Shown piece by piece: positions 6,446 to 53,934 of a stretch of DNA of 64,000 nt. Made by a program: the position numbers and the translations under genes. The stretch's first letter is position 1, and each line of letters begins with the position of its first letter. The DNA comes from an archaeon GW2011_AR5 (GTDB taxonomy: Archaea > Aenigmatarchaeota > Aenigmatarchaeia > GW2011-AR5). The notes under the pieces were generated by a model. The model was not told where the DNA came from. It saw only the letters and a program-made list of their open reading frames with translations, and made no database searches. Location of the stretch: contig JWKQ01000001.1 in NCBI GenBank assembly GCA_000806115.1, positions 304,915 to 368,914 on the forward strand. Direction: 5' to 3'.

Positions 6446-6520
6446 TACACTCTTTTTCTAATGTACCGGGAGCGCACATGCTCTTTTTGGCAGGAAACTA
6501 AAAGCGCGAAGGAGTTTATC

Positions 6521-6584
6521 TAAGAATGCATTGAACACTGACTTCAGGAATCAGATGAAACCCAATGCATTCTGGATACTATGT
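6521..6584. repeat. Palindromic repeat family D, copy 1
   Basis: An 11-bp perfect stem (AGAATGCATTG at 6523 and CAATGCATTCT at 6563) encloses about 29 bases and is followed by TGGATACTATG. The same arms and the same trailing sequence recur at 12198-12262 with a different loop. Each arm is itself nearly palindromic (AATGCATT). It lies in a 265-base gap after the PGF-pre-PGF gene. Confidence 0.75.
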
Positions 6585-6603
6585 TTCCATAATACACTGG
6601 GCT

Positions 6604-6661
6604 TTACGAGGAGAATCAAAGATTCTCCTGTACAGGTAAAGCTTTGCTTTACCTTGTAGCC
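6604..6661 (-). repeat. Double-hairpin repeat family C, copy 1
   Basis: Two adjacent perfect 9-bp hairpins, AGGAGAATC/GATTCTCCT (6609-6629) and AGGTAAAGC/GCTTTACCT (6634-6654), share the linker TGTACA and are flanked by TTACG and TTGTAG. Read on the minus strand, the order CTACAA, hairpin, TGTACA, hairpin, CGTA matches the copy at 13084, although most stem bases differ. The pairing is kept while the sequence changes. Confidence 0.8.
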
Positions 6662-10315: not shown

Positions 10316-11494
10316 ATGAACATTAAGCGCTTCAAAAATCCAAGTGGAAAGCTAGTGGATAGTAAAGATGTTTACAATGGAGAGTGTTATCATTGCTTTA
10401 TTCCAAATTCCTTGCCGCCTACAAAATTAGAAAATTTCGACAGGTCTTTGGTGGCTTTACTATCGGAAGCTGATACTAATTTTAATCGACTTGTAGGTAT
10501 GGGCGAACAATTACCAAATCCTTACATATTGCTTCATTCGTACATTAAAAAAGAGGCTGTATTGAGTTCCAAAATAGAAGGCACTCAGGCATCTTTAACT
10601 GACTTATTCCTTTACGAATTGGAGAAAAATAAATCAAAAGATGATAGACTTGGGCTAAAAGAAATATCTAATTATGTAATTGCTACAGAACGTGCCATGA
10701 AACATATTAGGAAAAAGAGGAAAATATCTCTAGTATTGATTAAGCATATTCATAAGATATTACTTACAGGAGTTAGAGGCGAAGATAAAAATCCTGGCAC
10801 TTTTCGCGTAACCCAAAATGCTATTGTACCTTACAAGAATTGTCCATTAGATGAAATTAGACTTATACCACCACCGCCAAAATATGTGAATAATTTAATG
10901 CTCAATTTACAATCGTTTATTGATAATCCACCAAAAGATATTCCCATCTTAATTCAAGCAGCAATTATTCACTATCAATTTGAAACTATACACCCATTTA
11001 ACGATGGAAATGGAAGAATAGGAAGATTACTAATTCCACTTTATTTGTGCGAAAAAGGTAATATTCGTCATGCTCTTATTTATCTGAGCGCATTCTTTGA
11101 AAAATACGATAAGGAATATAGAGAACGTCTTTTACAAGTTAGCCAGAATAGCGATTGGAATAGATGGTTCAAGTATTTTTTAACTGCAATTTCAGAACAA
11201 TCAAAAGCATCGATGCAAAGTGTTGAAAATTTAATTAGGTTAAAAAGGAGCTACGATACTACATTAAGGAGAACTAAGGCAAGTAAGAACGTTGAAAGAG
11301 TTATGGAATCTCTTTTTGTAAATCCATACACAACTCCTAATAACATTATGACATATTTGAATGTTAGTTATCAAACAGCCGTTAATGTCATAAATACACT
11401 AGCAAAACTGGAAATAATTAAAAAATATGATGAAAGAAAGAGAAATAAGGTGTATATTGCACCCAGAATATTGAAAATTATAGATAATGCTTAA
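10316..11494 (+). CDS. Fic-domain protein with inhibitory motif and C-terminal winged helix
   Basis: Fic enzymes usually transfer AMP from ATP to a hydroxyl side chain of a target protein. The core motif HPFNDGNGRIGR begins at about H226. An N-terminal S-x-x-x-E-G motif (SSKIEGT, E near 88) matches the self-inhibitory helix of the class with the antitoxin segment in the same chain. The N-terminal DUF4172-like region and a C-terminal winged-helix segment (TPNNIMTYLNVSYQTAV) resemble the common Fic/HTH architecture. ATG at 10316 is preferred to GTG at 10310. The gene is strikingly AT-rich beside GC-balanced ribosomal genes, a sign of transfer. Confidence 0.9.
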   Translation: MNIKRFKNPSGKLVDSKDVYNGECYHCFIPNSLPPTKLENFDRSLVALLSEADTNFNRLVGMGEQLPNPYILLHSYIKKEAVLSSKIEGTQASLTDLFLYELEKNKSKDDRLGLKEISNYVIATERAMKHIRKKRKISLVLIKHIHKILLTGVRGEDKNPGTFRVTQNAIVPYKNCPLDEIRLIPPPPKYVNNLMLNLQSFIDNPPKDIPILIQAAIIHYQFETIHPFNDGNGRIGRLLIPLYLCEKGNIRHALIYLSAFFEKYDKEYRERLLQVSQNSDWNRWFKYFLTAISEQSKASMQSVENLIRLKRSYDTTLRRTKASKNVERVMESLFVNPYTTPNNIMTYLNVSYQTAVNVINTLAKLEIIKKYDERKRNKVYIAPRILKIIDNA

Positions 11495-11621
11495 ATTCTG
11501 TAATGACATTTTAAAGCCCTTTGTTTTACAACCTTTCTAAGGCCCGTAAATGTTATAATACCAGATTCAGGTCATGCTTGAAAGGTTTATAAGTGTAGTT
11601 TTCCAATGAAATTTGATACTT

Positions 11622-12026
11622 ATGGTTTCGGCAAGAGAAGCAGACCAGCAGAAGCTTGTAACAAAGATGTCTGTCCAGATAAAGGACCATGTTCAGATGC
11701 CTGAATGGGCAAAATTCGTCAAGACAGGCATGTCCCGCGAAAGGCAGCCGGAACAGGCAGACTGGTATTACCTGCGCTCTGCCAGCGTGCTCCGTAAGAT
11801 ATACAACGACGGGCCTGTTGGTGTTGAAAAACTTCGCAGCTATTACGGCGGACTGCACCGAAGAGGACACAAACCGGCGAGGTTCGCGAAGGGCGGCGGA
11901 AAGCTGCTTCGTACCATACTCCAGCAGCTCGAGACGGCAGGATATGTGACAAAGGAAAAGAAGGGACGCCTGATAACGCCGAAGGGGCAGAAATTCGTTG
12001 ACGGCGCTGCAAAACTTACAAAATAA
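11622..12026 (+). CDS. rps19e: Ribosomal protein S19e
   Basis: This small-subunit protein, shared by archaea and eukaryotes, takes part in late 30S maturation. The 134-residue chain carries the family hallmarks PEWAKFVKTGMSRERQP and WYYLRSASVLRKIY near 30-65, then YYGGLHRRGHKPARF and a C-terminal winged-helix end (GRLITPKGQKFVD). ATG at 11622 is chosen over TTG at 11613. It opens the translation block that continues through PDCD5, L39e and L31e, an order common in archaea. Confidence 0.96.
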   Translation: MVSAREADQQKLVTKMSVQIKDHVQMPEWAKFVKTGMSRERQPEQADWYYLRSASVLRKIYNDGPVGVEKLRSYYGGLHRRGHKPARFAKGGGKLLRTILQQLETAGYVTKEKKGRLITPKGQKFVDGAAKLTK

Positions 12027-12084
12027 TTTTTTCTCAGAATGTTTTGATAATTTGTCCATGCCTAGAAAATAACATGAGGGGATT

Positions 12085-12270
12085 ATGATAAAGGTTCGGG
12101 ATATACTGTCAAGATATGAAAGCGCCAGAGTATCCTACCAGGGCGGAACGACACCAGAAAGCGCCCATACATATGGTTCAGAAGAATTTTTTATCCGAGA
12201 ATGCATTGAAAACTGTCGCATGAATGCGGAAGTTGAAACTCAATGCATTCTGGATGCTATGCTCTCATGA
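12085..12270 (+). CDS. Possible small ORF carrying repeat D in its 3' half
   Basis: The protein is not recognised. A 61-residue frame starts with a plausible coding N-terminus (MIKVRDILSRYESARV) and a ggggatt leader, but its second half is made of the family D palindrome at 12198-12262. It is either a gene truncated by the repeat or a chance frame. It lies between S19e and PDCD5. Confidence 0.3.
   Translation: MIKVRDILSRYESARVSYQGGTTPESAHTYGSEEFFIRECIENCRMNAEVETQCILDAMLS
12198..12262. repeat. Palindromic repeat family D, copy 2
   Basis: The arms AGAATGCATTG (12198) and CAATGCATTCT (12241) and the trailing TGGATGCTATG match the copy at 6521. The loop differs and contains its own small hairpin CGCAT/ATGCG. 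The copies are about 5.7 kb apart in the same orientation. Confidence 0.75.
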
Positions 12271-12273
12271 AAC

Positions 12274-12297
12274 CCGCACCTTTAGGTGCGGGATATT
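12274..12297. repeat. GC-rich hairpin after repeat D
   Basis: CCCGCACC, TTTA loop region, GGTGCGGG forms a strong 8-bp stem within aaACCCGCACC. It resembles subterminal hairpins of IS200/IS605-type elements and could be a solo end. It lies 12 bases after repeat D and 148 bases before the PDCD5 gene. Confidence 0.5.
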
Positions 12298-12444
12298 AGG
12301 AGCATTTCATAACTGCCGGTTCAAACCTGAATGATTTTACAAAAGGGTATTCGGAACATCTAAAAATCGGCGTTTCAAGATTCGGCAATCCGCCGGTTGC
12401 GAAAAGGCTTTTTATAGACAATAACAGAGCTAAGAAATGATAAC

Positions 12445-12777
12445 ATGGCTTCAGAAGAAGAAATCAAGAAACGACTGCAGCAGAGAATGCAGGCGCAGAT
12501 GCAGTCCTCCATGCAGGAGCAGGCACAGTCGCAGGCACAGCAGCAGCAAATGGAAGAGATGCTGAAAACTGTCATGAGCCAGATTCTTGACAGGAAGGCA
12601 CAGGAAAGACTTTCCAACCTGAAGCTTGTGAAGCCGGAGCTTGCAATGCAGCTCGGTGTTTATCTTGCCCAGCTCTTCCAGTCGGGACAGCTGCGCGAGC
12701 GCATAACAGACGAACAGCTAGTGACTATACTTCGCAAGCTGACGGAAAAGCGGGAAACCAAGATACGGAGAAAATAA
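12445..12777 (+). CDS. PDCD5/TFAR19-family DNA-binding protein
   Basis: The small helical protein (110 aa) belongs to a family found in archaea and eukaryotes that binds nucleic acid; its exact archaeal role is unsettled. The N-terminal half is an unusually Gln/Met-rich helix (residues 10-42). The conserved core is QILDRKAQERLSNLKLVKPE followed by a helix bundle ending in ITDEQLVTILRKL and a basic tail. Its position between S19e and L39e is the standard archaeal neighbourhood. Confidence 0.92.
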   Translation: MASEEEIKKRLQQRMQAQMQSSMQEQAQSQAQQQQMEEMLKTVMSQILDRKAQERLSNLKLVKPELAMQLGVYLAQLFQSGQLRERITDEQLVTILRKLTEKRETKIRRK

Positions 12778-12891
12778 AACCAGAGTCGCTAAAACAAACA
12801 CTTTAATACCTAACCGTCCAAGATAACAAAGGTATCAATCCATGGCGGCTTTCTCAGGAAGAAACCTGCACCAAAGAAATGTGAATTGAAT

Positions 12892-13056
12892 ATGGCATCA
12901 AGAAAACCACTTGGGAAAAAAATAAAGCTCATCGCCTGTCGCACGCAGAGCGCGCCGCGCTGGGCTGACATCAAGAAATTCTCGCTGAAAAGGGCCAGGA
13001 CCCGCAGGATACGCGTCACTACGAAGCACTGGAGACGCGGCAGAAACAAGGTGTAA
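12892..13056 (+). CDS. rpl39e: Ribosomal protein L39e
   Basis: This 54-residue, strongly basic large-subunit protein lines the exit tunnel. It is nearly the full family length (about 50) and carries RKPLGKKIKL near the start, then APRWADIK and a C-terminal KHWRRGRNKV. The ATG at 12892 fits the family start. A short frame from 12842 precedes it and is probably leader. The stop is followed at once by the pyrimidine/purine-arm module, then L31e. Confidence 0.95.
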   Translation: MASRKPLGKKIKLIACRTQSAPRWADIKKFSLKRARTRRIRVTTKHWRRGRNKV

Positions 13057-13158
13057 CCCTTTTCTTTTGGGAAAAGAAAAGCCCTACAAGGTTAAGCTTG
13101 CTTAACCTGTACAGGTGAAATGAAATTTCACCTCGTACTGGAAAAGAAAAATATTATA
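13057..13158 (+). terminator. 3' module: pyrimidine arm, purine arm, repeat C2, second purine arm
   Basis: Directly after the L39e stop, CCCTTTTCTTTT pairs with AAAAGAAAAG (13072-13081). Next comes a family C double hairpin (13084-13138: AGGTTAAGC/GCTTAACCT and AGGTGAAAT/ATTTCACCT joined by TGTACA). A second purine arm GGAAAAGAAAA runs into ATATTATA just before the L31e gene. The pyrimidine arm could pair with either purine arm. It probably acts as a terminator or attenuator; ATATTATA also sits where a TATA box for L31e would be. Confidence 0.7.
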
Positions 13159-13172
13159 AAAGGTGAAAAGTA

Positions 13173-13604
13173 ATGGCAGAAGAAAAGATATTTACAATCC
13201 CGCTGAGGGAGGCGTACAAGAAGGCGGAAGAGAAGAGAGTGCCTTACGCCGCGCGACTTGTAAGGAGCTACCTGCAGACGCACATGAAATCGGACAACGT
13301 AAAGCTGGGAAACAAACTTAATGAACAGCTGTGGAACCGCAGCATCTCGCGCCCGCCGAGGCAGATACGTGTAAAGGCGTTCAAGGAAGACGGCGTAGTG
13401 AAAGCCGAGCTTATGGGATATGATTATGTTGACTTCAAGGCAGCGCCGAAAAAAGAGCGCAAAGACATGAAGGAAAAGCTCATGGAAAGGCTCGGGCCAA
13501 AGGCTCTCAAGAACGAGGAAGAGGAGCAGAAAGTCGAATCTGCCGGAAAGGCGCCCGAAAAAGCGAAGCCGGTGGAAAGGCACGAAGTCGGCGAGAACGC
13601 TTAA
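13173..13604 (+). CDS. rpl31e: Ribosomal protein L31e with extended acidic/basic tail
   Basis: This 50S protein sits by the tunnel exit. Residues 1-85 match L31e: FTIPLREAYKKAEEKRVPYAA near 6-26, LGNKLNEQLWNRSI and PPRQIRVKAFKEDG. The family is usually 80-95 residues; here a charged Lys/Glu-rich tail of about 50 residues (from about 90) is added. Typical archaeal neighbours are L39e before and aIF6 after; here aIF6 is 1.6 kb away, separated by VapBC, a DUF120 gene and repeat A. L18a/LX, often next to aIF6, is not in this window. Confidence 0.95.
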   Translation: MAEEKIFTIPLREAYKKAEEKRVPYAARLVRSYLQTHMKSDNVKLGNKLNEQLWNRSISRPPRQIRVKAFKEDGVVKAELMGYDYVDFKAAPKKERKDMKEKLMERLGPKALKNEEEEQKVESAGKAPEKAKPVERHEVGENA

Positions 13605-13997
13605 TTACAGAATTATTTTTTTAAGTTCTTCTATTTCATTGAATTGTTTGTCTACAGTGACCAGCGTCAAGTTATTTTCTATTGCATGACTCGCTATCAA
13701 AAGATCAGCCAGAGAGAAAGAATTTCCTTTTTTGTCGTAATTATGCTTGAGGTCGCTTAATATGTGAGCCGTTTCTTTCGTCGTATGAATGCACTGGAAT
13801 TTGTTGAGAAATATCAGTGCGCTTTCCTTGTTCTTTGGTGATTTCGCTTCCAGTCCGTGATAGAATTCAAAATAACTCATGAATGGTATCACAGCAGGCG
13901 CCGAATCCTTTTTTGTTATCTCAGAAATGCGTCTCATGACAGCTTTATCTTTTTTTTCCAAACGTATCAGAATGGATGTGTCAAAAGCAAGCGTCAT
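13605..13997 (-). CDS. vapC: PIN-domain ribonuclease toxin (VapC type)
   Basis: PIN toxins cleave structured RNA such as initiator tRNA with a metal-binding acidic cluster. The expected residues are present: D6 in AFDTS, E44 in SYFEF, D98 in LADLLIA and D116. The length (130 aa) is normal. Its ATG overlaps the antitoxin stop in an ATGA junction, so the pair is translationally coupled. It sits tail-to-tail with L31e and is AT-richer than its neighbours, pointing to insertion into the ribosomal block. Confidence 0.9.
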   Translation of the reverse strand: MTLAFDTSILIRLEKKDKAVMRRISEITKKDSAPAVIPFMSYFEFYHGLEAKSPKNKESALIFLNKFQCIHTTKETAHILSDLKHNYDKKGNSFSLADLLIASHAIENNLTLVTVDKQFNEIEELKKIIL

Positions 13998-14233
13998 CTG
14001 AATCCTTTCTCCTTCCTAAGTTTTTTTACGAAAGACTCCATTTCGTCGGCTTCTTTGTCGCTTAGTATTTTTTCCCCATGAAGTATATCGTCCCAGAATC
14101 GTCTGTTCCTTTCTTCGTAATCATCAGTGATTTTTTTGATGATCTTTCCCATGGTTGCGTCATGTTCTGCGGAAAGCATCTTCAGTTTCCTCCACGTTTC
14201 TTCGTCAACATCCTTTATTGTTTTTGTAGCCAT
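13994..14233 (-). CDS. vapB: Antitoxin partner of the PIN toxin
   Basis: This 79-residue protein starts with a ribbon-helix-helix-like segment (TKTIKDVDEETWRKLKMLSA) followed by a charged helical region that would wrap the toxin. ATG at 14233 is chosen because the frame further upstream overlaps the opposite DUF120 gene and looks non-coding. GTATTATAGTAAT upstream provides a TATA-like element, and autoregulation by the complex is the family norm. It ends with an ATGA overlap into the toxin gene. Confidence 0.85.
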   Translation of the reverse strand: MATKTIKDVDEETWRKLKMLSAEHDATMGKIIKKITDDYEERNRRFWDDILHGEKILSDKEADEMESFVKKLRKEKGFR

Positions 14234-14317
14234 ATGGGTATTATAGTAATACAAGTATTTAAGTATTACTTTTGTGAAAATCATGATTCTTAACCCTTGA
14301 TTTCCAAGTATATTCCA

Positions 14318-14902
14318 ATGCGCGTCAGGGGAGAGGTGTTCTCTGGCGCACTTCGCGGGACCCCTCTCATAGAAAAATACTACCCGAGACTCGTCGGCCT
14401 GGTCGGGTTTCGGCCGTTCAAGGGAACCATGGACGTGAAGCTTGAACGAAGTATCGATATCAGGCCGTTTAGTTCTAAGACTATGGAACATGTGCTGACC
14501 AACGGCAGGAAAATAATAACGGCGCACCTGGCGCATGTGAGGATACGAAAATTCTCGGCTGTTTACCAGATAATGGAGCTGCGCACAAAACAGAAGGAAA
14601 TGATCGAGCACGCCAAAAAGATGGAGGATTCCGCGGAGCGCTTTTCAATAAAAACCTCCCACGAGATTGACGAGCCTTTCTACGACTGCTGGGCAATGCA
14701 GTTCATGAACGGCATATACGGCAAAGACATCGTGGAGCTGATTGCGCCGGAAATGATAAAGGAAAAACTGGAGCTCGGCGACAACGACACCGTTGAAATA
14801 GAATTCACAGAAATAAAGGAGCCTCATACAAACAGGCTGCCGGAGCCCGGGGGCATAAAGGAGTCCTCTGAATCGTCCCCCGCAAACCGCGGCAATGTCT
14901 GA
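14318..14902 (+). CDS. DUF120 protein, CTP-dependent riboflavin kinase family, paralogue 1
   Basis: Archaeal RibK phosphorylates riboflavin to FMN using CTP rather than ATP. The family core is present: RGEVFSGALRGTPLIEKYY, then GFRPFKGTMDVKLE near 33-46, and a C-terminal beta section ending in DNDTVEIEFTEIKE. A middle segment (residues 80-120) is longer than in single-domain RibK. A hydrophilic tail of about 25 residues follows. ATG at 14318 starts the conserved strand. A second paralogue lies at 16007, so one of the two may have another substrate. Confidence 0.75.
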   Translation: MRVRGEVFSGALRGTPLIEKYYPRLVGLVGFRPFKGTMDVKLERSIDIRPFSSKTMEHVLTNGRKIITAHLAHVRIRKFSAVYQIMELRTKQKEMIEHAKKMEDSAERFSIKTSHEIDEPFYDCWAMQFMNGIYGKDIVELIAPEMIKEKLELGDNDTVEIEFTEIKEPHTNRLPEPGGIKESSESSPANRGNV

Positions 14903-14921
14903 ATTCTAGGATTCAATATCA

Positions 14922-15200
14922 ATGAAACTTAGCGGAAATAGGATTGCTCTAGTCGCAACAGTAATTATGCTATTTGCTCTTCTGCCGAGCTATGCAATGT
15001 CTAACGTATCCTGTGATACTGATCTTGAAGACGCCCCAAACTACCGCCTTCAGGCGGTATGTATTAAGGGCGTCTTCGGGATCCCATCTTCCAACAAACC
15101 CACGACTTCAGTCGTGGGTATACAAGGAAGATGTGATTTCAATATATATTCTGTGGCAAGCTATTGCGCTTCAAATTCTGACATGAATTTCTCTATTTAA
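14922..15200 (+). pseudogene. Secreted-protein gene interrupted by repeat A1
   Basis: The frame begins with a clear signal peptide (RIALVATVIMLFALLPSYA), predicted cleavage near residue 26, followed by a few residues including a Cys. From residue about 33 it is translated from the double-hairpin element A1 (15018-15141), then 20 residues of plausible original sequence follow before the stop. It looks like a short secreted protein broken by, or extended through, the insertion. The original function is unknown. Confidence 0.45.
15018..15141. mobile_element. Double-hairpin element family A, copy 1 (IS200/IS605-like non-autonomous element)
   Basis: The unit starts ACTGATCTTGAA. The outer stem is GAAGACGCCC/GGGCGTCTTC (15027-15075) and encloses TACCGCCT/AGGCGGTA. 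After GGGATCC comes the second outer stem CATCTTCC/GGAAGATG (15085-15133), enclosing CCCACGACT/AGTCGTGGG. A second copy at 48142 keeps all four stems with paired base changes. The CCCACGACT hairpin is typical of IS200/IS605 ends, so a transposase-less derivative is the best guess. Confidence 0.75.
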
Positions 15201-15224
15201 GTCATTTTATCAAAAAGATGATTC

Positions 15225-15887
15225 ATGCAAAACATACTCAGGACGAACTTCGACGGCGACCCCAACATCGGGCTGTACGGCTTCGCATCGGACAGCTACT
15301 GCTTCACCGGCGCCGGCAGGTACGTAACAAAGCTGAAGGACACCCTTAAAGTGCCCGTGCACGTCGTTCACTTCCTCAATATGGACCTTGCCAAGATATT
15401 CTGCGCCGGAAATTCAAGCGGCGTTGCGGTGCCGAAGATAATAGATGATTTTGACAGGGAAGAAACCGAAAAGCTCAGGGAGCACACAAGGGTGATTTCA
15501 ATCGACACGAACTACTCATCGCTCGGCAACCTCATACTCATGAATAACAACGGAATCGTGCTGTCCCCGCTGCTCAAAAAGCACAGGAAACAGCTGGAAA
15601 GCTTTTTTGGCGTGCCCTGCGAGATTTCAAAGATAGCGGGCATGAGCATAGTGGGCAGCCTCGGCTTCGCCACAAACAAGGGATGCCTGCTGCACCCGAA
15701 AGTTCGCGAAAAGGAGAAGCGGATGATAGAAAAAATCCTTCAGGTTGACGCGGACATAACAACGGTGAATTTCGGCTCGCCGTACCCCGGAGCCGGACTC
15801 ATCGCCAACAGCAACGGCTTTGCAGTTTCCGAAGTCACCAGCGGACCCGAACTCGGGCGCGTGACCGACGTTCTTGGATTTCTTTAG
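15225..15887 (+). CDS. eif6: Translation initiation factor aIF6
   Basis: aIF6 binds L23/L24e on the 50S subunit and blocks premature joining to 30S. The 220-residue protein shows the pentein-fold repeats, including NIGLYGFASDSYCFTG near 14-29, GNLILMNNNGIVLSPL near 102-117 and NSNGFAVSEVTSGPELGRV near the end. Length is normal. A TATA-like CTATTTAAG lies about 30 bases upstream. It is followed by repeat B1 and the second DUF120 gene. Confidence 0.97.
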   Translation: MQNILRTNFDGDPNIGLYGFASDSYCFTGAGRYVTKLKDTLKVPVHVVHFLNMDLAKIFCAGNSSGVAVPKIIDDFDREETEKLREHTRVISIDTNYSSLGNLILMNNNGIVLSPLLKKHRKQLESFFGVPCEISKIAGMSIVGSLGFATNKGCLLHPKVREKEKRMIEKILQVDADITTVNFGSPYPGAGLIANSNGFAVSEVTSGPELGRVTDVLGFL

Positions 15888-15895
15888 AATGAGGT

Positions 15896-15980
15896 ATTGA
15901 GAACTTTGATTAAGCCTTTGGTTGTCAAAGTTCACAATAAGGACTTTGTACGAAAGACATATTATTCAAAGTCCTCTATT
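15896..15980. repeat. Double-hairpin repeat family B, copy 1
   Basis: Hairpin 1 is AACTTTGA/TCAAAGTT (15902-15932) and hairpin 2 is AGGACTTTG/CAAAGTCCT (15940-15975). The centre CACAATAAGG can extend hairpin 1 (ATTG with CAAT) or hairpin 2 (AATA with TATT, one C bulged). The element contains GACATATTATTC in the second loop. A near-identical copy lies at 53850. Confidence 0.85.
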
Positions 15981-16006
15981 TATTTCAGGAAGCCTGAATA
16001 TAATCA

Positions 16007-16567
16007 ATGATTCTTGAAGGCAAGGTATTTTCAGGCGTGAACCGCGGGAAAGAGCTCATCAAAAAATACGAGCCGAGAATCATAGGCATACTTGGCTTGC
16101 GCCCTTTTCCCGGCACGCTGAACGTGAAGATGGAACGGGAGACTGACGTAAAAAGCCATTCAACAAAGACAATAGATTTTCTACTCACGGACGGGAAGAG
16201 GAAAATCGATGCTTATCTCGCTCCCGTTGCCATGAAACCTTCCCAGAAAACCCTGAGGGGCGTGCTGATAGAAGGGGACGAGACCGTTTCCACTTACAAA
16301 TGGAAGGGCAAGGACGCGTTTTCCCTGAGAAAATCGGGAAAGATTGCAACATGGGACATAATACGAAGCGACGCAGACCGCGAACTTATCGAATACCTGA
16401 AAAACCGCAAAGAGAATGCGCAAAAGCCTGAATGCAAGGGCTGGGCAATCCAGTTCGTTTCAGGCCCGCACAATTACGCGCACCTTGAAATCATTTCCGG
16501 CGTTAACATAAAAGAGAGCCTGAAAATAAAAGACGATGACAAGATTCGTATAGAATTTTTGGCGTGA
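16007..16567 (+). CDS. DUF120 protein, CTP-dependent riboflavin kinase family, paralogue 2
   Basis: Like the gene at 14318, this 186-residue protein has the RibK core: EGKVFSGVNRGKELIKKYEPR, then GLRPFPGTLNVKMERETD near 30-47, and a C-terminal KIKDDDKIRIEFLA strand matching the LkdGDxIxI end of RibK. An insert of about 60 residues separates the two halves. This copy keeps G-T-L-N-V-K more exactly than paralogue 1, so it is the better candidate for the true riboflavin kinase. It is followed directly by the Nudix gene, possibly cotranscribed. Confidence 0.78.
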   Translation: MILEGKVFSGVNRGKELIKKYEPRIIGILGLRPFPGTLNVKMERETDVKSHSTKTIDFLLTDGKRKIDAYLAPVAMKPSQKTLRGVLIEGDETVSTYKWKGKDAFSLRKSGKIATWDIIRSDADRELIEYLKNRKENAQKPECKGWAIQFVSGPHNYAHLEIISGVNIKESLKIKDDDKIRIEFLA

Positions 16568-16572
16568 ACCGA

Positions 16573-17025
16573 ATGAAAAGACTGAACGACAGGGAGTGGA
16601 AGCGGCTCTGGAAAGCAAAGCCGACCGCCTCGTCAGACTGCGTTGTCGTCAGGGGAGACGAGGTGGCTCTTGTAAAAAGAGACACAAAACCGTTCAGGGG
16701 ATACTGGACGCTGCCCGGCGGACTGATGGACAACGGAGAGTCAATAGAACAAACCGCCCTGAGGGAAGTGAAGGAAGAAACCGGAATTAAAGGAAGAATA
16801 ATCAGTCTCATAGGCGTTTATTCCTCACCCGGCAGGGATCCAAGAGGCACTTCTCTGTCTGTCGCGTTCCTGATAAAATTTGTCAAGTTTGCAGGCAAGC
16901 CTGATCTGGAAAACTCTGAAGTAAGATTCTTTCCCATGAACAAGATTCCGAAGAAGCTTGGGTTCGACCATTTGTTGATTGTTAAAGATGCCTTACGGTG
17001 CTACAAGAAAATGAAGAATAAGTAG
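16573..17025 (+). CDS. Nudix hydrolase
   Basis: Nudix enzymes hydrolyse nucleoside diphosphates linked to another group. The Nudix box, beginning GGLMDNGESIEQ and ending REVKEETG, is complete near residues 49-71, so the metal-binding glutamates are present. The preceding KPFRGYWTLPGG is typical of the ADP-ribose/ADP-sugar and NADH-related branches, but the substrate cannot be told from sequence. ATG at 16573 is preferred; a GTG at 16564 overlapping the upstream stop is possible. It may serve the riboflavin/FMN neighbour or simply housecleaning. Confidence 0.9.
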   Translation: MKRLNDREWKRLWKAKPTASSDCVVVRGDEVALVKRDTKPFRGYWTLPGGLMDNGESIEQTALREVKEETGIKGRIISLIGVYSSPGRDPRGTSLSVAFLIKFVKFAGKPDLENSEVRFFPMNKIPKKLGFDHLLIVKDALRCYKKMKNK

Positions 17026-24484: not shown

Positions 24485-25198
24485 ATGGAAATACAGCCTC
24501 CAATGAAACAAATGGGTTACGACCGAGCTATAGTTGTGTTCTCTCCAGAGGGGAGAATGTACCAGGTGGAATACGCGAGGAAAGCGGTTGAAAAAGCATC
24601 CACCGTGGTGGGCGCCACGTTTACAAATGGAGTCGTGCTTACGGCAGCGCGCTCTATCCAGAAGCTTCTCGTGCCGGAAAGCGTCGAGAAAATATCCAAG
24701 GTGGACGACCACATCGGCATAGCGTCATGCGGAATCCTTGCAGACAGCAGGATTCTTGTTGATTACGCAAGGGTCAAGAGTCAGGTGAACCGCATCACTT
24801 ACAGCGAACCGATAGAGATATCCGCGCTGGTAAAGGACATCTGCGACAGGAAGCAAAGATTTACGCAGATGGGCGGCATAAGGCCGTACGGTGTCACGCT
24901 CCTGGTTGCGGGAATGGACGGAACGCCTCATTTATATGAGACAGATCCGTCCGGCACCATGCGCGAGTGGAGGGCACACGCAGTTGGCAGGGGCAGCAAG
25001 GACGCGAGGAAAGTCCTCATGGAAGAATACAAAGACGGGCTGACAAAGGAAAAAGCCACCGAACTCGCGCTCAAGGCATTAAAGTCAGGAGAAAAGAAGC
25101 TGACGCTCCGCTCTGTCGAGGTCGGGTTTGTCGAGAACGGCAAGTTCAAGCTGATGGACAAGAACGAGCTGAAAGAGGTTATGAAGAAGTTCATTTAA
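24485..25198 (+). CDS. psmA: Proteasome subunit alpha
   Basis: Alpha subunits form the outer rings and the gate of the 20S proteasome and dock the ATPase. The 237-residue protein has the N-terminal gate and YDRAIVVFSPEGRMYQVEYARKA signature (residues 12-34), then IGIASCGILADSRILVDYAR and GGIRPYGVTLLVAG. ATG at 24485 follows AAAAAGGTGAT, a good ribosome-binding site. No beta subunit or PAN gene is in the window. The stop is followed at once by the 3' module at 25199. Confidence 0.97.
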   Translation: MEIQPPMKQMGYDRAIVVFSPEGRMYQVEYARKAVEKASTVVGATFTNGVVLTAARSIQKLLVPESVEKISKVDDHIGIASCGILADSRILVDYARVKSQVNRITYSEPIEISALVKDICDRKQRFTQMGGIRPYGVTLLVAGMDGTPHLYETDPSGTMREWRAHAVGRGSKDARKVLMEEYKDGLTKEKATELALKALKSGEKKLTLRSVEVGFVENGKFKLMDKNELKEVMKKFI

Positions 25199-25249
25199 CC
25201 CTTTTTCTTTGAAAAAGAAAAAGCGCTACCGGAAAAAGAAAATATTATT
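25199..25249 (+). terminator. 3' module without inserted repeat
   Basis: CCCTTTTTCTTT directly after the psmA stop can pair with AAAAAGAAAAAG (25212-25223) or with GGAAAAAGAAAA (25231-25242), which runs into ATATTATT. The spacer GCGCTACCGG corresponds to the place where repeat C2 sits in the L39e module. U-rich RNA here should terminate psmA transcripts. Confidence 0.65.
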
Positions 25250-25307
25250 GGGCGGCTCGCTGGCGCTTCGCTCTTTCTTTAAGAACTTTTTTATTTTATC
25301 TTTGAGA

Positions 25308-40375: not shown

Positions 40376-41266
40376 ATGCAAATCGAACAACTTGTTGCAG
40401 AAATAAAGAAATCGGGCGCAAAGAAAGTTATGGTGCAGCTGCCGATGGGACTGAGGACAAGGACTGCAGAGATGGCGGGTGCGCTTGAAAAAGAAAACAT
40501 ATCTGCGATTTTCTCGCTCAACCCGTGCTACGGTGCGTGCGACACGGCTGACGAGGAGGCAAAGCAGGCGGGCTGCGAGCTGCTGATACACGTCGGGCAC
40601 AGCAAGTTCTACAGAAACTTCGACACGGCGGTTCCGGTTATATATTTTCCGTGGACTTCTGAAATCGCCTTCGGCAGCATAGATTTCTCGCCGATGAAAG
40701 AGAAACGAATCGGGCTGCTTACGACTATACAACACCTTTCCGCGCTCTCAGGCGTGAAAGAAATGCTTGAGAAGGAAGGAAAAGAGGCTGTCATTGGCGG
40801 GCAGGTTCTCGGATGCTGGTTTGCGAACGCGGACAAGATAGCGGACCGCGTGGACGCGTTCCTGTACGTCGGCTCGGGAAGATTTCACCCGCTTGGCATA
40901 GGAAACCGGAAGATTTATGCGCTTGACATAGAAACGATGAAGGTTGAGGAAGTTGATACGATGCACCTCGAAAAGAGGAGGTATGCGAACATCTACAATG
41001 CAAAGGATGCAAAAACTTTTGCAATACTTGTGACAACGAAGAAGGGGCAGAACAACCTCCTCGGCGCGGCGGAAACAGTCAGGGAAAGGCTCGAACAGGC
41101 GGGAAAGAGAGCCTTCGTCGTTGTGATGAACGAGATTAACGACGCGGCGCTGACGGGAATAAAGGCGGACGCTTTCATCAATACAGCCTGCCCGAGAATC
41201 GTAGAAGACAGCTTTTCAAAGCCGATAATAAACGTGGAAGACGTCGAGAAGATTTTTGAGTGCTAA
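40376..41266 (+). CDS. dph2: Diphthamide biosynthesis protein Dph2
   Basis: Dph2 is the radical-SAM-like [4Fe-4S] enzyme that moves the 3-amino-3-carboxypropyl group from SAM to a histidine of elongation factor 2. The 296-residue protein has NPCYGACD near 49-56, LGCW with C147 and TACPRI with C272; C55, C147 and C272 fit the cluster ligands. The length is a little short of common archaeal Dph2 (about 330). It is divergent from tfs and followed at its stop by the 3' module at 41267. Confidence 0.93.
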   Translation: MQIEQLVAEIKKSGAKKVMVQLPMGLRTRTAEMAGALEKENISAIFSLNPCYGACDTADEEAKQAGCELLIHVGHSKFYRNFDTAVPVIYFPWTSEIAFGSIDFSPMKEKRIGLLTTIQHLSALSGVKEMLEKEGKEAVIGGQVLGCWFANADKIADRVDAFLYVGSGRFHPLGIGNRKIYALDIETMKVEEVDTMHLEKRRYANIYNAKDAKTFAILVTTKKGQNNLLGAAETVRERLEQAGKRAFVVVMNEINDAALTGIKADAFINTACPRIVEDSFSKPIINVEDVEKIFEC

Positions 41267-41320
41267 CCGATTTTTTTCTTTCGAAAAGAAAAAACTAGGT
41301 ATTCAAAAAAGAAACATATT
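41267..41320 (+). terminator. 3' module after dph2
   Basis: A pyrimidine arm (TTTTTTTCTTT at 41271) can pair with AAAAGAAAAAA (41284) or with AAAAAAGAAAC (41304), which runs into ATATTAC. The stop codon of dph2 is directly upstream. ATATTAC and a later TTAAAGTTTATCC could serve the ribE promoter. Confidence 0.6.
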
Positions 41321-47987: not shown

Positions 47988-48146
47988 ATGACGACTACTC
48001 ATACGAAGGCGCCGGAGTGCTGCGGGCAGCAGATGACTGTCAGGACTGACATGGGAAAATTTTTGGAGGTTTTCTGCGAAGCCTGCAAGGATTCGATATA
48101 CGTAAAGAAGCAGGACACAACCAAGCCGCAGATGATTGACGACTGA
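47988..48146 (+). CDS. Small Cys-rich protein, 52 aa
   Basis: ECCGQQ and FCEACKDS provide paired cysteines in a ribbon-like spacing. ATG at 47988 has an upstream gacagaa leader. The stop TGA at 48144-48146 lies inside the conserved left border of element A2, so the C-terminus may have been altered by the insertion. It is probably cotranscribed with the 30-aa ribbon gene. Confidence 0.6.
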   Translation: MTTTHTKAPECCGQQMTVRTDMGKFLEVFCEACKDSIYVKKQDTTKPQMIDD

Positions 48147-48265
48147 TCTTGAATGCGCCCCAAAATACCGTCTTTAGTCAGTATGTATTAAGGGCGCATT
48201 CGGGATCCCATCTTCCCTACAAACCCACGACTGAAGTCGTGGGTATATCGGAAGATGTGATTTTC
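48142..48265. mobile_element. Double-hairpin element family A, copy 2
   Basis: It shares ACTGATCTTGAA, GGGATCCCATCTTCC and GGAAGATGTGATTT with A1. The first stem is GAATGCGCCC/GGGCGCATTC, differing from A1 in two paired positions, and the last is CCCACGACT/AGTCGTGGG with loop GA instead of TC. The inner stem of the first half is weaker here. Orientation is the same as A1. Confidence 0.75.
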
Positions 48266-48392: not shown

Positions 48393-48809
48393 ATGGCAAA
48401 GAAAAAACTGCAAAAGAAAACAAAAAACCCCCGGAAGAAAGCAAACAGCCAGGAAAAGTTCAGAAGCGAGAAGAAGCAAAAGTCGTCCATCGAGTTCTGC
48501 GAGAAATGCGGCTCCATAATGGTTCCAATAAAGAAGGGAAAAACCTCGTATGTCAAGTGCAGGCACTGCGGGAAGGAAATGAAGAAAGAAATGAAGGGCA
48601 TGAAGATAGTCGAGGAGAAAATCAACCACAAAGGCGTGGTGGTTATTGAGAAAGATACGACTCTGCTCCCGCTGACTGACAAGGAATGCCCGAAATGCGA
48701 GTACGGCAGGGCATACTGGTGGATGCAGCAGACCAGGAGCGCGGATGAGCCGCCGACCCAGTTCTTCCGCTGCGAGAAATGCAAGCATACCTGGCGCGAA
48801 TACAAGTGA
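48393..48809 (+). CDS. TFS-like transcription factor with basic N-terminal extension
   Basis: The C-terminal ribbon (CPKCEYGRAYWWMQQTRSADEPPTQFFRC, with catalytic D-E) is nearly that of the TFS at 40025, so cleavage activity is expected. The N-terminal ribbon has CEKCGS and CRHCGK. A 30-residue Lys/Arg tail precedes it and is absent from the other copy. Several archaea keep a second TFS that inhibits or modifies polymerase; which role applies here is unknown. The stop is followed by the 3' module with repeat C3. Confidence 0.9.
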   Translation: MAKKKLQKKTKNPRKKANSQEKFRSEKKQKSSIEFCEKCGSIMVPIKKGKTSYVKCRHCGKEMKKEMKGMKIVEEKINHKGVVVIEKDTTLLPLTDKECPKCEYGRAYWWMQQTRSADEPPTQFFRCEKCKHTWREYK

Positions 48810-48944
48810 GCCTTTCTTCTTGTTCTTGGACGGACTGGCGTCCTATCATATAGACAAGAAGAAATCCTCACAAGCAAGAGCTTTGCTCTTGCTGTGCAGC
48901 ATTTCGAACGAAATGCTTGCAAGGGAAAGAAGAAAAATATTATT
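48810..48944 (+). terminator. 3' module with inserted repeat C3 between convergent genes
   Basis: After the TFS-like stop, CCTTTCTTCTT can pair with ACAAGAAGAAA (48854) or with GGGAAAGAAGAAA (48922), which runs into ATATTATTG. Between the purine arms lies a family C double hairpin (48869-48922): AGCAAGAGC/GCTCTTGCT and AGCATTTCG/CGAAATGCT around TGTGCA. The convergent basic-protein gene ends at 48940, so the module may terminate both. Confidence 0.7.
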
Positions 48945-49167
48945 GCCTTCGCTTTTTCTTCGTTTTTCTGACAGGTTTCTTCGCTTTCCTTGCTCTTTTC
49001 TTATTTTTCAGCTCGCTTCGGAAGCCCTCAATGAATGCGCCGCTGAACGCTCCCGCTTCCTTTGCAGTCATCTGGGCTGTTTCGATGATTTCCCGCGTGG
49101 TTTTGCCCATCGCTCTTCCCATGTCCGTCCCTGTTTTTCTTGAATTCCTTCTTGTCATAGGCATCAT
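48940..49167 (-). CDS. Small basic protein with Lys/Arg-rich tail, 75 aa
   Basis: The protein is not recognised. A helical, Ala/Gly/Thr-rich centre (TTREIIETAQMTAKEAGAFSGAFIEG) is followed by a 25-residue Lys/Arg tail (ELKNKKRARKAKK...), suited to nucleic-acid or membrane binding. Three nearby ATG codons (49167, 49164, 49158) could start it. It shares a divergent promoter region with the acetyltransferase. Confidence 0.65.
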   Translation of the reverse strand: MMPMTRRNSRKTGTDMGRAMGKTTREIIETAQMTAKEAGAFSGAFIEGFRSELKNKKRARKAKKPVRKTKKKRRQ

Positions 49168-53836: not shown

Positions 53837-53849
53837 TCGAGAGATGCCT

Positions 53850-53934
53850 ATTGAGAACTTTGATTGACCATTTTACTATCAAAGTTCACAATAAGGACTT
53901 TGTACAAAAGACATATTATTCAAAGTCCTCTATT
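53850..53934. repeat. Double-hairpin repeat family B, copy 2
   Basis: It is nearly identical to B1: AACTTTGA/TCAAAGTT, centre CACAATAAGG, AGGACTTTG/CAAAGTCCT and GACATATTATTC. The first loop differs completely, while both stems are unchanged. Its right end supplies the TAG stop of the 82-aa gene on the minus strand (53930-53932). Confidence 0.85.

Follow-up and report, generated by a model that had tools for sequence, protein, structure and literature searches.

IS608 picks its target tetranucleotide by pairing with a guide adjacent to a hairpin, and an altered guide redirects insertion (PMC5934647). For REP elements, cleavage at a dinucleotide is proposed to be guided by a tetranucleotide that lies 5′ of the hairpin, and in one REP system changes to the guide bases shifted the cleavage site predictably (PMC8266576). 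Strain-specific insertions occur in Haloquadratum although nearly all of its IS200-type transposase genes are broken (PMC3119063), which provides a precedent for mobility where transposase genes are mostly broken. A literature search on palindromic repeats in Aenigmarchaeota, judged by titles and abstracts, gave no description of paired-hairpin elements of the kind treated here. Here we describe repeat C, a double hairpin of ~48–54 nt whose predicted guide logic resembles that of IS608 and REP elements in its working.

The window (the whole 64,000-nucleotide stretch of DNA analysed) belongs to a genome of 858 kb in three contigs (G000, 87.6% complete), which was compared at the window's synteny blocks with three congeners, G001–G003, where G001 corresponds to the public Candidatus Aenigmatarchaeota MAG JAGVVU01. 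A more distant relative, G011, is of a different genus in the same family. Searches, together with stretches of G000 and its relatives, yielded 60 non-redundant copies of repeat C, which are a sample and not a full-genome census. C-like hairpins are found in 10 of the 19 genomes of the family, covering 6 of its 10 genera, and a search of viral contigs and of phage and plasmid collections for repeat C gave no match.

Three contigs of G001 (C15, C37 and C39; L160, L031 and L041) contain stretches 99.7–100% identical to G000, while the remaining G001 genes show ~20% DNA difference. C15 passes from near-identical to 77% inside one contig, indicating a chimeric assembly or recent exchange. The near-identical stretches, which represent either a cross-binned strain or recent exchange, were excluded as independent evidence. 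At this strain level, all three of the repeat C copies compared are still in place, and the element therefore does not move rapidly. Contigs L007 and L041, which are near-identical, differ by a 92-nt indel that was also considered and rejected, as it resembles coding sequence rather than a repeat.

The copy C2 resides in the gap between the L39e and L31e genes (Table 1), of which the 56-residue L39e frame has no Pfam match. The gap reads TAACCC-TTTTCTTTT-GGG-AAAAGAAAAG-CCCTAC-(C2)-TGG-AAAAGAAAAATATTA, and comprises the TAA stop codon (13054–13056), a pyrimidine arm, a purine arm, the hinge holding C2, a mirror purine arm and ATATTA, an arrangement that we term the P module. The purine arms GGAAAAGAAAA flank C2 at 13070–13080 and 13140–13150 (two found, 0.14 expected by chance). 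The initial annotation had placed C2 between the purine arms with CTAC to its left, and the coordinates (13084–13138) bear this out. It had further suggested a TAC duplication or target; the flank is indeed repeated, but the unit is TA (sometimes CA), since different bases follow the right TA (T in 31 copies, G in 10, C in 7, A in 3) and the left ‘TAC’ takes its C from the element, which begins with that base. Folded as single-stranded DNA, C2 has a predicted energy of −15.3 kcal/mol (z = −7.1), with none of 200 shuffles equally stable.

Table 1. Coordinates of repeat C copies, P modules and adjoining genes in the window.
Feature	Position	Strand	Sequence or remark
Third in-window copy of repeat C	6607..6658	+	TA-CG-(hairpin)-GTAC-(hairpin)-TG-TA; adjoins palindromic repeat 6515-6606
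L39e gene	12886-13056		Name from the initial annotation
P module directly after L39e (host of C2)	13054..13155	+	C-free orthologous module in G003
Pyrimidine arm Y	13059..13068	+	CTTTTCTTTT
Purine arm R	13072..13081	+	AAAAGAAAAG; pairs with Y
Left CTAC of C2	13084-13087		
Target TA, left copy	13085..13086	+	Lone TA of the empty site
Element C2	13087..13137	+	51 nt relative to the empty site, second TA included; with both TA, 13085-13137
C2 hairpin 1	13089..13108	+	AGGTTAAGC TT GCTTAACCT
Central GTAC	13109..13112	+	Common to both inverted hairpin units; proposed guide
C2 hairpin 2	13113..13133	+	AGGTGAAAT GAA ATTTCACCT; TAC/GTA extension, 1-nt bulge
Right GTAC of C2	13135-13138		
Right TA copy	13136..13137	+	
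Third arm R′	13140..13151	+	GGAAAAGAAAAA; match to R: mirror 10, direct 9
L31e gene	13173-13604		PF01198
P module 3′ of psmA	25196..25252	+	Hinge GCGCTACCGG (25224-25233), without C; orthologous place in four species
P module	~41266-41310		More P modules in relatives
P module after transcription factor S-like gene	48807..48945	+	CA-type hinge; holds C3
Element C3, CA subfamily	48871..48921	+	CA-(hairpin)-GTGC-(hairpin)-TG-CA; with left CA, 48869-48921

Repeat C displays one order across the 60 copies, comprising YA, C, a purine (A in 49, G in 9), a hairpin, GTAC or GTGC, a second hairpin, a further base (T in 44, C in 12, A in 4), G, and YA. The central tetranucleotide is GTAC in 49 copies, GTGC in 10 and ATAC in one. 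A target flank is shared among the copies, with TA on both sides in 47 and CA on both sides in 7. Each unit is made up of a 9–10 bp stem with a 1-nt bulge and, mostly, a C–G-closed triloop. The right half has the reverse-complement layout of the left half, with the central tetranucleotide common to both, such that the left unit is TAC-R-hairpin-GTA and the right unit TAC-hairpin-Y-GTA; that is, two inversely oriented palindromic units. The bulged base is A or G in 58/60 left units and T or C in 56/60 right units, and the stems are kept by paired changes. Of the 120 loops, 96 have a length of 3 nt and 99 are C–G-closed, with GAA and TTC each present 20 times, an equality expected for a symmetric element readable on either strand. 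The C-GAA-G loop is a very stable DNA mini-loop, and its presence hints at a DNA rather than an RNA role. C3 has the geometry of C2 with different stems and CA/GTGC linkers. It had been described as another copy at the equivalent place in the 48.8 kb module; position and geometry agree with this, but C3 is a member of a CA sister subfamily with its own target dinucleotide.

That repeat C is mobile, as initially suggested, is largely right, given the orthologous empty sites at two loci. At the L39e/L31e gap, G003 has the orthologous module without C (CCCTACTGG), reading CCC-TA-CTGG versus CCC-TA-(CAAGG..GTAC..CCTCG)-TA-CTGG in G000, with G001 and G002 lacking the module; the three-way automatic alignment was poor here, and the comparison is of the sequences read directly. 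At C1:15.9 kb, G000 is filled with a near-identical C, and the G001 orthologue is empty (CCCTACTGTAAAAG). The C3 site corresponds to a C-free truncated module in G001, to no module in G003, and to a different module in G002. Relatives thus do not always carry the repeat at the same sites. G000 also has a T-element with C at C1:34.0 kb, where G003 and G002 have neither, and at C1:431 kb, where both are absent from G003, G002 and G001. The reverse case is seen at C1:28.5 kb, where the module is uninterrupted in G000 and the G003 hinge holds a different double hairpin.

In G011, a length of exactly 54 nt is all that separates two copies of one host element (ACACGA-TA-TGACTTCC versus ACACGA-TA-CGAGG..CCTTG-TA-TGACTTCC). 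The single TA of the G011 T-element hinge may be empty, filled by C, or occupied by an unrelated double hairpin. All cases read have one YA when empty and two when filled, a pattern for which an element-borne YA and a duplication are indistinguishable by sequence. The presence of C at many unrelated places requires gains, although the direction of change is unproven site by site because precise loss is possible, and a site that lost its copy by slippage between short repeats can look like an empty one. The psmA module had been offered as the empty counterpart of the L39e module. It is C-free, but we rejected it as an empty site: the comparison is paralogous only, and this module, which has a hinge sequence of its own, was already present in the ancestor of the four species.

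Copies of repeat C are seen in the hinges of P modules, in the hinges and hairpin loops of T-elements, and in the loops of other repeats. A stem of at least 8 bp encloses 12 of 48 copies, compared with 82 of 3000 random TA sites (2.7%; p = 1e-8), with several of the 12 being related copies in G011. Placement in loops and hinges fits a single-stranded DNA target, and also fits a simple tolerance of insertions there. G011 has many T-element copies, and at one locus (L191) a T-element lies inside the hairpin loop of another.

The host P module is itself unusual in its symmetry. Across 44 non-redundant modules from the four congeners, the third arm was compared with the second arm and with its mirror image: the mirror image is the better match in all 32 informative modules, the direct arm in none, and the remaining 12 are ties (sign test p = 5e-10). 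Arm matching is module-specific, scoring 392 versus 329 ± 5.6 for shuffled pairings (0/500 shuffles reach this value), and in the psmA module, kept in four species, all three arms have changed together. An intramolecular triple helix needs mirror symmetry, and on sequence grounds the three covarying arms have the geometry predicted for one. Such a helix would be of the purine-purine-pyrimidine kind on the sense strand, or would run pyrimidine-hinge-pyrimidine-loop-purine on the opposite strand, the order of the MALAT1 and PAN RNA triple helices. When triplexes are left out, RNA folding also lets arms 1 and 3 pair at L39e, a pairing that asymmetric modules disfavour as the general structure. 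In 29 of the 44 modules an open frame of at least 70 codons has its stop codon 2–8 nt ahead of the first arm, suggesting that the P module may act at 3′ ends, and it is a candidate structured 3′ end in archaea. Extra hairpins in the hinge, where C resides, would least disturb the putative triple-helix fold. P modules also come immediately after a 5′ fragment that resembles a tRNA (L127, near 2074, minus strand) and after a tRNA-looking sequence (L128, ~1959–2058); ARAGORN called no tRNA on either, and an intron-containing or split tRNA gene is possible.

The central tetranucleotide and the flanking dinucleotide vary together. For the left flank, the combinations TA+GTAC, TA+GTGC, CA+GTAC and CA+GTGC occur 46, 0, 2 and 10 times (p = 1e-9), and for the right flank 48, 0, 1 and 7 times (p = 3e-8); as the copies are related, these p-values overstate independence. 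The stronger point is that one stem family (AGCAAGA../GCATTT..) occurs as TA/GTAC in a CCCTAC hinge (G003, L131) and as CA/GTGC in a CCTCA hinge (C3), each combination matching its hinge. Within G-T-R-C, the bases T2R3 complement the YA of the flank, as a guide of the IS608 or REP kind would, and this suggests that repeat C may find its targets by base pairing of its centre with the target dinucleotide. The complementarity could also arise by selection for a longer stem after insertion.

The multi-copy state, the fixed geometry, the orthologous and paralogous empty sites, the YA flanks, the centre/flank complementarity and the nesting are established. To account for them we favour, at about even odds (a probability near 0.5), repeat C as a non-autonomous mini-element of REP/BIME- or PATE-like character that is moved in trans by a Y1 (HUH) transposase. 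A Y1-type HUH transposase of the IS200/IS605 class, supplied in trans, would bind C folded as a single strand; the guide would be the tetranucleotide that precedes hairpin 2 on its 5′ side, pairing with the flanking YA on both sides; and C would be precisely excised and would then enter exposed single-stranded DNA again, just 3′ of a YA. Since the loops and hinges of resident hairpins are exposed single-stranded DNA, this would explain the nested placement. Y1 genes are found in 6/10 carrier genomes versus 1/9 non-carriers (p = 0.057; G007 counted on three stubs only), and were not detected in the carriers G000, G009, G011 and G015, of which G011 nevertheless has the most C matches. The Y1 proteins of relatives are of the IS200 type in all three tested, and the REP transposase model matched two of them at 24.9 bits (cut-off 80) and the other not at all. 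The ends of the Y1 genes at four loci of relatives carry no C-like hairpins, and a Y1 parent element with C-like ends was rejected on this basis. The three stubs of G007 (on C2, C3 and C4 of that genome) are short and match only the last 33 Y1 transposase positions; they are perhaps transposon deletion derivatives.

Other explanations make different use of the same observations. Repeat C might need no transposase of its own to spread: near-identical host modules could pass it on by gene conversion or recombination, together with template switching driven by the hairpins, and the empty sites would arise by replication slippage at the short YA repeats. Hairpins between short repeats are prone to precise deletion, the G000 copies at window 13.1 kb and C1:15.9 kb are 97% identical across the whole 104-nt module and so beyond C, and Y1 and DDE_3 genes are both missing in four carrier genomes. 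However, C occupies unrelated frames (P hinge, T hinge, T hairpin loop and other repeats), and copying of modules does not predict the covariation of centre and target, leaving this route unlikely in our estimation. Lower still we place a MITE that targets TA and is moved by a DDE transposase of the IS630/Tc1-mariner type, with a true TA duplication and CAAGG/CCTTG terminal inverted repeats. The prevalence of TA flanks, the inverted ends and the lone TA of empty sites are all as such an element would have them, but the terminal repeat common to all copies is at most ~5 nt, a CA subfamily with a matching GTGC is unexpected, and DDE_3 (PF13358) is absent from 9/10 carriers, with only a partial match in G016; IS630 was rejected as the driver on account of that absence.

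It is very improbable that repeat C is an immobile structural RNA of the 3′ untranslated region, such as a terminator or mRNA stabiliser, gained and lost under selection. Its position in P modules, in the hinge just 3′ of stop codons, and its paired stem changes suit an RNA, but C also occurs in contexts with no 3′-end module, the equal numbers of GAA and TTC loops indicate no strand preference, and an Rfam search of window positions 11000–17000 found no known RNA family. Returning to the preferred transposase-moved mini-element, a more specific form is held tentatively, at somewhat below even odds: a guide-directed single-stranded DNA element in symbiotic archaea, in which one palindromic tetranucleotide would guide two inverted hairpins, set TA or CA as the target, and colonise exposed loops of other structures, above all the hinge of the conserved gene-end P module with its triple-helix geometry.

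The window also holds other palindromic repeats and small genes, and the gene-dense genomes of ~0.9 Mb bear nested palindromic repeats after essential genes. A long double-palindrome repeat lies at 15018–15137 and 48142–48261, with ~20 or more related places in G001, whose copies have, at CCAA-CA-AACCC, a C-like double hairpin of the CA type. An 86-nt palindromic repeat (TATTGAGAACTTTGATT..CAAAGTCCTCTATT; 15895–15980 and 53849–53934, 91% identical) also occurs in relatives, but neither G001 nor G003 has it in the gap orthologous to that at 15.9 kb. Another (AGAATGCATTGAA..CAATGCATTCT) occurs at 6515–6606, where it adjoins a C copy, and at 12190–12284, and the 12.2-kb gap of G001 and G003 is free of it. 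Two overlapping small genes on the minus strand (13605–13997 and ~13994–14250) are PIN-toxin/antitoxin-like by eye; both are present in G001, and no orthologue was found in the syntenic stretches of G003 and G002.

Several known systems share part of this anatomy. The double-hairpin elements of fungal mitochondria likewise consist of two tandem hairpins and are reported to be mobile; they belong to a different domain of life, and we know of no YA or guide rule for them. MITEs of the IS630 type have the same change from one TA when empty to two when filled, but nine of the ten carriers of C are without an IS630-type transposase, and C has a CA-target subfamily. The SMR-A element of Haloquadratum is small and transposase-free, prefers the palindromes of other elements and has an unknown mode of movement (PMC3119063). 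Insertion into other elements' palindromes is seen for repeat C as well. SMR-A measures ~110 bp, twice the length of C, and has prominent inverted repeats but makes no target duplication, whereas C has a YA at either flank.

The terminal-only PATEs of Haloquadratum are ~52 bp and derived from IS605-type elements; like C, PATEs are archaeal, ~50 bp and palindromic, with strain-specific insertions and mobility where transposase genes are mostly broken (PMC3119063). They differ in having neither terminal inverted repeats nor a target duplication, whereas C consists of two inverted units and has its YA twice, and no parent transposon was found for it. The likeness to REP/BIME elements extends to small palindromes in inverted pairs, a single-base stem irregularity, a tetranucleotide immediately 5′ of the hairpin, and a dinucleotide to each side, which in REP elements is the cleavage site and in C a presumed one; in one tested REP system the choice of site depends on the guide (PMC8266576). 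In contrast, C has GTAC or GTGC and not GTAG, YA and not CT/CA, one central tetranucleotide used by both units where REP/BIME has a variable linker, and no REP-type transposase was found for it. Repeat C, lacking both GTAG and a REP transposase, is not a REP, but its presumed workings are like those of REP/BIME or PATE elements, and as a natural series of covarying presumed guide and target it makes the guide idea, drawn from engineered IS608 and one REP system, testable on natural variants.
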